Source of the DNA: Verrucomicrobia bacterium LW23
GTDB lineage: Bacteria > Verrucomicrobiota > Verrucomicrobiia > Methylacidiphilales > UBA1321
Direction of reading: 5' to 3'
Length of the DNA stretch: 64,000 bases
NCBI GenBank assembly: GCA_003054695.1
Contig: QAZA01000014.1
Span: 1 to 64,000, forward strand
The notes beneath the pieces were generated by a model. It saw only the letters and a list, made by a program, of their open reading frames with translations. It did no database searches and was not told the origin of the DNA. This document shows, in pieces, positions 1 to 1,027 of the stretch (positions are counted from its first letter, which is position 1; each line of letters begins with the position of its first letter). The translations under genes were made by a program, and so were the position numbers.

Positions 1-9
1 AGCGCACAC

Positions 10-39
10 TTGACGCTCATACCTAAACCTTATTATAGC
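10..39 (+). promoter_or_regulatory. Candidate sigma70 promoter reading into the palindromic element
   Basis: A TTGACG box (10-15) and a TATAGC box (34-39) are separated by 18 bases. A start near 46 would transcribe the large palindrome that begins at 61. No coding gene is credible immediately downstream, so any transcript would be a structured RNA or an accident. This is sequence pattern only. Confidence 0.3.
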
Positions 40-60
40 TATTTCTGACTCAGGACACTA

Positions 61-512
61 GAGCGTTTTCCAGATAGCTTGTCGCGAATTTTCCAAGCTC
101 CGAGAACGGCGGCGCCGTTGACGTTCGCAAAAGGGCGAAGCCCCAGGCATAGCGCTCTGAGAACGGCGGAGCCGTTCTATACCCTAGCCCGGGGTTGCCC
201 GCAGCATTCTGATGCGAGGACTACCCCGGGAAAGTTCGCCTCAGCAACCCTACGCGAAGCGTTCTTATGTTGATCCACTCGCGCTCTTTTACCGCAAGTG
301 CGAGGCCTTCTCTGTGGCTCTGAACATGGCACGCGCGAGGAACGAGCGCGAAGGGTCCAACGGAAGAACGCTTCGCGTGGGGTTCCTGATTCCAGCCTAC
401 CCGGGGTAGTCCTCGCATCAGAATGCTGCGGGCAACCCCGGGCTAGGGTATCGAACGGCTCCGCCATTCTCGGAGCTTGGAAAACTCGCGACAAGCTATC
501 TGGAAAACGCTC
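61..512. repeat. Large imperfect palindrome (about 450 bp)
   Basis: The outer arms 61-111 and 462-512 are inverted copies of each other with about two mismatches. An inner pair continues the symmetry: about 161-230 against about 399-468, nearly identical and ending in a CCCCGGG block. The left side holds about 55 extra bases, because the segment around GAACGGCGG..GCCGTT occurs twice (near 103 and 161). Weaker symmetry continues to about 290/345. Small reading frames on both strands here encode near-identical peptides only because the DNA is palindromic; I do not call them genes. It contains no transposase. It could be a non-autonomous mobile element or a chromosomal interspersed repeat. Confidence 0.8.
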
Positions 513-601
513 TACACACAGTATCCAGTATCCTCTGAAGCGCCACAGGTGTGAAAGCCTGTAGCCCAGGCGATAGCCATGGGCGAGGATGATAGTTCGC
601 G

Positions 602-618
602 GCGTTCTTAAGGAACGC
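602..618. other. Short hairpin downstream of unknown gene
   Basis: GCGTTC and GAACGC flank a five-base loop. The hairpin lies just past the stop of the minus-strand frame ending at 621. There is no T-run, so a classical intrinsic terminator is not supported. Confidence 0.3.
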
Positions 619-620
619 GA

Positions 621-986
621 CTACCGCGTCCCACGAATCTGCTCCAAGATCGCGGGGTCGCGTATCTCGCCGTCCCTTGCCAGCAGGATGAGCTTGCTCA
701 GCAGATCCGCGGTCTTGGGGTCGCTATCCGCAAAGGGGAGGAAGATGCGGCCGCGATGCTGGCTGCGCACCGGCACAATGTAAAGGGAGCCGCCGGCGAC
801 AGTGTGTGCAATGGCGCTGCCCAGGTGCAGGCCATAGGTTGCCAGCTTGCCGGAAATGACGGCGTTCGTCGTCCGGAGTTCCACGTTCTGCAGGCGCAGC
901 AGGCGCGTCGTCTCCTCGACGAGAGCGCGGCGCATTTCCACGGTGCTTTGGCTCGCTTCGGGGTCGACGCCGCCCATGTGGGCCAC
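621..986 (-). CDS. Hypothetical protein, possibly the C-terminal part of a frameshifted gene
   Basis: The frame encodes about 121 residues from a GTG; an ATG lies three codons later. It is rich in Leu, Arg and Glu in its first half (EMRRALVEETTRLLRLQN), which suggests a helix or short coiled coil. I recognise no family. The frame is open upstream only to a TGA near 1054, while the previous minus-strand frame ends in TAG at 1028-1030. A single-base shift in 1031-1053 would join the two into one protein of about 300 residues. It may therefore be a real second cistron without a good ribosome site, or the tail of a broken or shifted gene. Confidence 0.4.
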   Translation of the reverse strand: MAHMGGVDPEASQSTVEMRRALVEETTRLLRLQNVELRTTNAVISGKLATYGLHLGSAIAHTVAGGSLYIVPVRSQHRGRIFLPFADSDPKTADLLSKLILLARDGEIRDPAILEQIRGTR

Positions 987-1027
987 GCTGACGACGTCTT
1001 CGGACGTCAGGTAGTCGGGGTCGCAGC

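Follow-up and report, generated by a model that had tools for sequence, protein, structure and literature searches.

The palindrome and its internal structure

What kind of element forms a long palindrome at the very edge of a contig is the question raised by the DNA analysed here, a stretch of 64,000 nucleotides (the window) that opens contig C14, its start being the contig edge. The host genome belongs to the Verrucomicrobiota (6.61 Mb, 56 contigs, 95.4 % complete), and the closest relatives of its PurH (~61-62 %) are Verrucomicrobiota MAGs, several of them labelled Opitutales.

Alignment of the arms confirmed the near-identical long palindrome that an earlier note had described at positions 61-512, an element of 452 bp. 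The outer arms (61-111 and 462-512) are identical at 49/51 positions, and at 58/61 paired positions when the bordering TA dinucleotides are included (59-119 and 454-514). The inner arms are identical at 67/70 positions between 154-223 and 407-476, while identity drops to 125/148 over their full extent (154-301 and 329-476), and the description as near-perfect thus applies to the outer parts (58/61) but not to the inner arms overall. The extra piece on the left side only also exists, with a length of one 57-bp period rather than the 55 bp given previously, as is evident from the direct repeat at 97-119 and 154-176. The limits 61-512 are the exact ends of the element, provided that the TA at 59-60 and at 513-514 is counted as the target duplication. 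Among ORFs of ≥100 aa, a mechanical one (105 aa) is the sole entry for the 452-bp element, and no transposase gene lies inside. The features are collected in Table 1.

Table 1. Features of the palindrome and its left border, in window coordinates
Feature	Position	Strand	Evidence
End of a different insertion sequence	1-58	.	Interior beyond contig edge; inserted at CTAG beside the palindrome
TA, left copy of target duplication	59-60	.	Edge comparison, empty sites
Left terminal inverted repeat, cassette A	61-96	+	39 sites with ≤3 mismatches, reversed control 0; 50 model matches
Joint kernel GAGAACGGCGGAGCC, here with one mismatch	102-116	+	Kernel test
Cassette B1, left side only	120-153	+	With one kernel forms the extra 57-bp unit; B1 also at 7 other loci
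Joint kernel	159-173	+	Kernel test
Cassette C, left half of inner hairpin	178-301	+	Arm alignment, cassette map
Centre between inner arms, 27 nt	302-328	.	Arm alignment
Cassette C, right half	329-453	-	Arm alignment, cassette map
Joint kernel, inverted	457-471	-	Arm alignment, kernel test
Right terminal inverted repeat, cassette A	477-512	-	Arm alignment, arm-pattern search
TA, right copy of target duplication	513-514	.	Edge comparison, empty sites

Copies and distribution of the palindrome family

A search with window positions 40-540 produced 106 alignments in the own genome, the copy number being a lower bound as the best 40 of 104 first-look candidates were scored. The pattern of the cassette A arm occurs genome-wide at 39 sites with ≤3 mismatches (reversed-pattern control, 0) and that of a diverged arm, A2, at seven sites (control, none), while an arm model gave at least 50 matches genome-wide (best 150 of 5597 candidates scored). 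Cassettes of the family were mapped at 56 loci within the fetched stretches, which cover ~0.52 Mb, include the window and were chosen mostly for holding matches. Together with four weak arm-model matches outside the mapped stretches (C45:288856, C45:808388, C9:257239 and C30:52349), these amount to about 60 full or partial loci in all. Many loci are one-armed or partial, and most copies thus look old and decayed. The copy at C50:324210, which lies inside a 604-kb contig, shares the cassette order of the window copy, including the left-only B1, at 92 % identity, although its outer right end is truncated; the flanks of the two copies look unrelated. One further copy (L013; C45:683775-684184) has, in place of part of cassette C, a sequence similar to a different repeat (ACCAATGTACCGGTTTATTCCGATAATTGGTCTTA), and this repeat also flanks a copy of the palindrome family at a second locus (L011).

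A lack of other copies in the genome or its relatives, which the earlier note had named as counting against it, was not what the searches showed; dozens occur in the own genome, while none were found in the relatives searched. The family was not found in the 39 other relatives searched, nor in 386 genomes of the same phylum besides the own (at most two candidates scored per genome), nor in the plasmids or phages searched. One exact 21-mer had no matches across contigs from 84,980 species, from which the own genome was perhaps left out. The palindrome family is lineage-restricted. No report of the repeat was found in a literature search, and an exact-string search of two pieces returned no papers.

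Element ends and target site

The ends of the element are constant whatever the interior, reading TA·GAGC...GCTC·TA or a decayed form thereof, and constitute terminal inverted repeats like those of a MITE. The end sequence is GAGC(A/G)TTTTCCAGATAGCTTGTCGCG, with A2 as a diverged alternative. Among the intact AGAGC ends which do not abut an insertion sequence (IS), a T precedes in 19/27, against a background of 12.7 % of 841 AGAGC sites. For all ends not abutting an IS, T-A precedes in 24/48, and the base at position -2 is C or T in 41/48, which gives YTAR as the preferred target.

Two empty sites provide the target-site duplication of a MITE, with edges TA/TG and TA/TA, respectively. When the flanks of the element at C45:268476-268635 (TA/TG) are joined, they give a sequence which is uninterrupted at seven other loci. 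The element at C20:65-224 (TA/TA) lies at a TA between an IS end and a second repeat, and this junction of IS end, TA and repeat is found uninterrupted elsewhere, although it is uncertain which of the nested C20 insertions came first. Four of the thirteen elements for which both edges were examined have TA on both sides, and in two of these (the window and C20 copies) the left TA adjoins an IS end; the remaining 9/13 have at least one mutated or truncated edge. The proposal that a TA inside cassette A marks the edge of an older element was dropped, with no clear support in the copies.

Three ORFs, 1025, 772 and 506 codons long, terminate precisely at a TAG that belongs to the element (C1:70622, C30:79135 and C39:231170; loci L039, L034 and L010, respectively), and the insertion thus supplies the stop codon at these three loci. 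TAG-ending edges closing an ORF of at least 100 codons number 7/23, compared to 24.5 % of random TAGs, which represents no clear excess.

Sequences adjoining the palindrome

Window positions 1-58 are the end of a multi-copy, CTAG-targeting insertion sequence. The inverted end of this IS, at 28-58, reads outward CTTATTATAGCTATTTCTGACTCAGGACAC, and 28-60 recurs at twelve contig ends (C14, C5, C39, C34, C26, C56, C30, C2, C24, C16, C1 and C20) with two end types, five of the type in the window and seven of the other. TA follows the IS end in 12/12 of these, while TAG (CTAG) is read in 11/12, and 5/12 IS ends adjoin cassette A of the palindrome family. The body of this IS was not found in the sequence searched. 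A promoter-like sequence previously proposed at 10-39 lies inside the IS end, to which it belongs, and is not listed by a promoter scan. The IS, which differs from the palindrome family, probably inserted later at the TA/CTAG on the left edge of the window copy.

Just to the right of the palindrome, a GTAG-type REP is located at 536-590. The IS200-like Y1 transposase gene at C25:144746 stands between two inverted 48-bp copies, perfectly matched to each other, of a REP that closely resembles this one (L071, 1343-1390 and 2003-2050). This gene and its flanking REPs form a REPtron-like unit, and a similar unit is present at C50:245252.

Origin of the palindrome

The palindrome at 61-512 is most probably a full-length MITE, the ends of which would be recognised in trans by a putative TA-duplicating DDE transposase. 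This reading is based on the size of the family, the constant inverted ends, the TA duplication and the variable interior. The earlier suggestion of a non-autonomous mobile element is thus borne out by the many copies, their constant inverted ends and the TA duplication at two empty sites. A DDE transposase acting in trans would insert the element at TA, preferably within pyrimidine-TA-purine or CTAG, and duplicate the TA, with cut-and-paste transposition possibly performed by an enzyme of the IS5 or the IS630/Tc1-mariner type.

An unlikely alternative is that the palindrome is a chromosomal repeat retained for its role at the RNA or DNA level, such as a terminator, RNase III, nucleoid or gyrase site, and spread by recombination rather than transposition. 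Its very strong fold (-354 kcal/mol as a single strand; z -25.5; 0/100 dinucleotide shuffles equal) would suit such a function, as would the 6/137 pairs in six full inner hairpins which have changes on both sides with pairing kept, although these double-sided changes could also stem from arm-to-arm conversion and the RNAalifold covariation term for the six copies is unfavourable (+6.95). Furthermore, the order of the inner cassettes varies widely and a duplicated TA goes with the ends, while no terminator-like site occurs in window positions 1-1000 and no Rfam family covers the palindrome. The strong RNA fold noted previously follows from the palindrome, and covariation lends selection no support. 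A selfish element is enough to account for the palindrome, and selection on RNA is without support.

Movement of a REP/REPIN-like element by a Y1 (IS200-type/RAYT) transposase appears very improbable. The palindrome is multi-copy, and the Y1 genes of the genome are flanked by inverted GTAG-type REPs, one of which type stands at 536-590; however, the REP flanking the Y1 genes differs in sequence from the palindrome, the arms of which were not found beside Y1 genes in a flank comparison. The ends are also of the form TA·GAGC with a TA duplication, which one would not expect of a Y1 transposase. Finally, the position of the window start at a contig edge would fit a one-off inverted duplication or assembly artefact, but this can practically be discounted, given that the whole arrangement, left-only B1 included, recurs inside the 604-kb contig (C50:324210) and the arms are found at dozens of loci.

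Search for a partner transposase

For the preferred reading, that of a MITE mobilised in trans, a partner IS was sought in the own genome. The lack of a transposase reported earlier was corroborated, with none inside the element and none with its ends among the own-genome matches searched. Comparison of the flanks revealed no IS with the ends of the family among 5 Y1, 13 DDE_3, 7 DDE_Tnp_1_2 and 7 DDE_Tnp_1 matches. Considering that the genome is 95.4 % complete and that repeats break contigs, the partner IS may be unassembled or lost. A TA duplication, as in IS630/Tc1-mariner derivatives, was found, and on this basis the transposase was at first taken to lean towards IS630. The IS630-type ends nevertheless differ from those of the family in the three elements with clear ends, while the remaining DDE_3 matches gave none; likewise, the ends of the family are not shared with IS5-family ISs among the matches compared. 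Small hairpin repeats carry the ends of the genome's own IS630-type elements (TTAGACCAATT... and TAAACAGAGCGTCAT...) in the right flank of one locus (L016) and around 1090-1206 of another (L100).

A second palindromic repeat, R2 (TA·GAGGCTGTCGACATT), shares its exact ends with a CTAG-flanked IS5-type IS at C10. A transposase fragment at C41, beside an R2 end, is related to the C10 IS and passes the NCBIfam IS5 cut-off. R2 was noted at L192 (1076-1766) and at 29 listed sites, and in several loci it adjoins cassette A with a single TA between them. The ends shared by R2 and an IS5-type IS show that the genome carries MITE/IS pairs, and the type of transposase for the palindrome family is on this account left between IS5-like and IS630-like.

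Cassette mosaic and joint kernel

At least seven arrangements of cassettes occur between the constant ends, ranging in size from 91 to 500 bp. These include A-A', A-B2'-A', A-B1-B2'-A', A2-B3-A', A2-C-C'-A' and A2-C-C'-B2'-B1'-A', as well as A-B1-C-C'-A', which is the order of the window copy and of C50:324210. The left-only B1, being shared by these two copies, can thus be considered an ordinary cassette difference rather than a recent tandem duplication. A 15-nt kernel, GAGAACGGCGGAGCC, is present within three mismatches at 37/40 joints between mapped neighbouring cassettes (C1-C1 neighbours were left out), compared to 0.9 % of random 45-mers. The kernel and its neighbours read GCTCCGAGAACGGCGGAGC, the ends of which are complementary, and a small hairpin could thus form.

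Cassettes are presumably added, dropped or inverted when recombination or template switching takes place at this kernel, and fold-back at the same site presumably makes the palindromes. It may tentatively be proposed that the family is a self-assembling MITE, in which hairpin cassettes are swapped, amplified and flipped at the 15-nt kernel and a TA-duplicating transposase spreads the new palindromes which fold-back or template switching makes there, although this is less likely than not.

Comparison with known repeat systems

Elements of this kind are known, but both the family and the way its cassettes are put together seem to be novel. Bacterial interspersed mosaic elements (BIMEs) are mosaics of short palindromic units which go with Y1 transposases, and the present family resembles them in its mosaic make-up. 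The TA duplication and long terminal inverted repeats, however, belong to the present family and are not known from BIMEs.

The RUP element of Streptococcus pneumoniae is a MITE for which IS630-Spn1 is the presumed mobiliser (PMC2229807). RUP is likewise small and non-coding, with terminal inverted repeats, TA in its target and a high intergenic copy number, and tends to insert in or beside IS elements (PMC2229807); however, RUP is uniform (107 bp) and has a proposed partner IS, whereas the present family is modular (91-500 bp) and its partner was not found among the matches searched. MITEPsy1 of Pseudomonas syringae, an IS5-family MITE, inserts after CTAG or YTAA with a 4-nt duplication (PMC3189936). 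The target of the present family similarly contains CTAG/YTAR, and its sister repeat R2 has IS5-type ends, but the end sequences of the family differ from those of MITEPsy1. Beyond the TA, the two edges of a single copy carry different bases, and the duplication thus fits TA (2 bp) better than the 4 bp of MITEPsy1. GTAG-tagged REPs, abundant in Opitutus terrae, are also palindromic repeats in the Verrucomicrobiota, but are 20-40 bp in length with a GTAG tag, an appearance shared by window positions 536-590 and not by the palindrome (PMC3733652).

Implications

An odd palindrome at a contig edge thus becomes a transposon family, one which shows how long palindromes, normally unstable, can arise and diversify. 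A CTAG-targeting IS lands in the palindromic MITEs, and copies of this IS lie at contig ends of the assembly. The cassettes with their common joint form a natural record of exchange at hairpins which can be tested in the laboratory and, if the self-assembly proposal is true, the family would represent a mobile element that carries its own joint for recombination.
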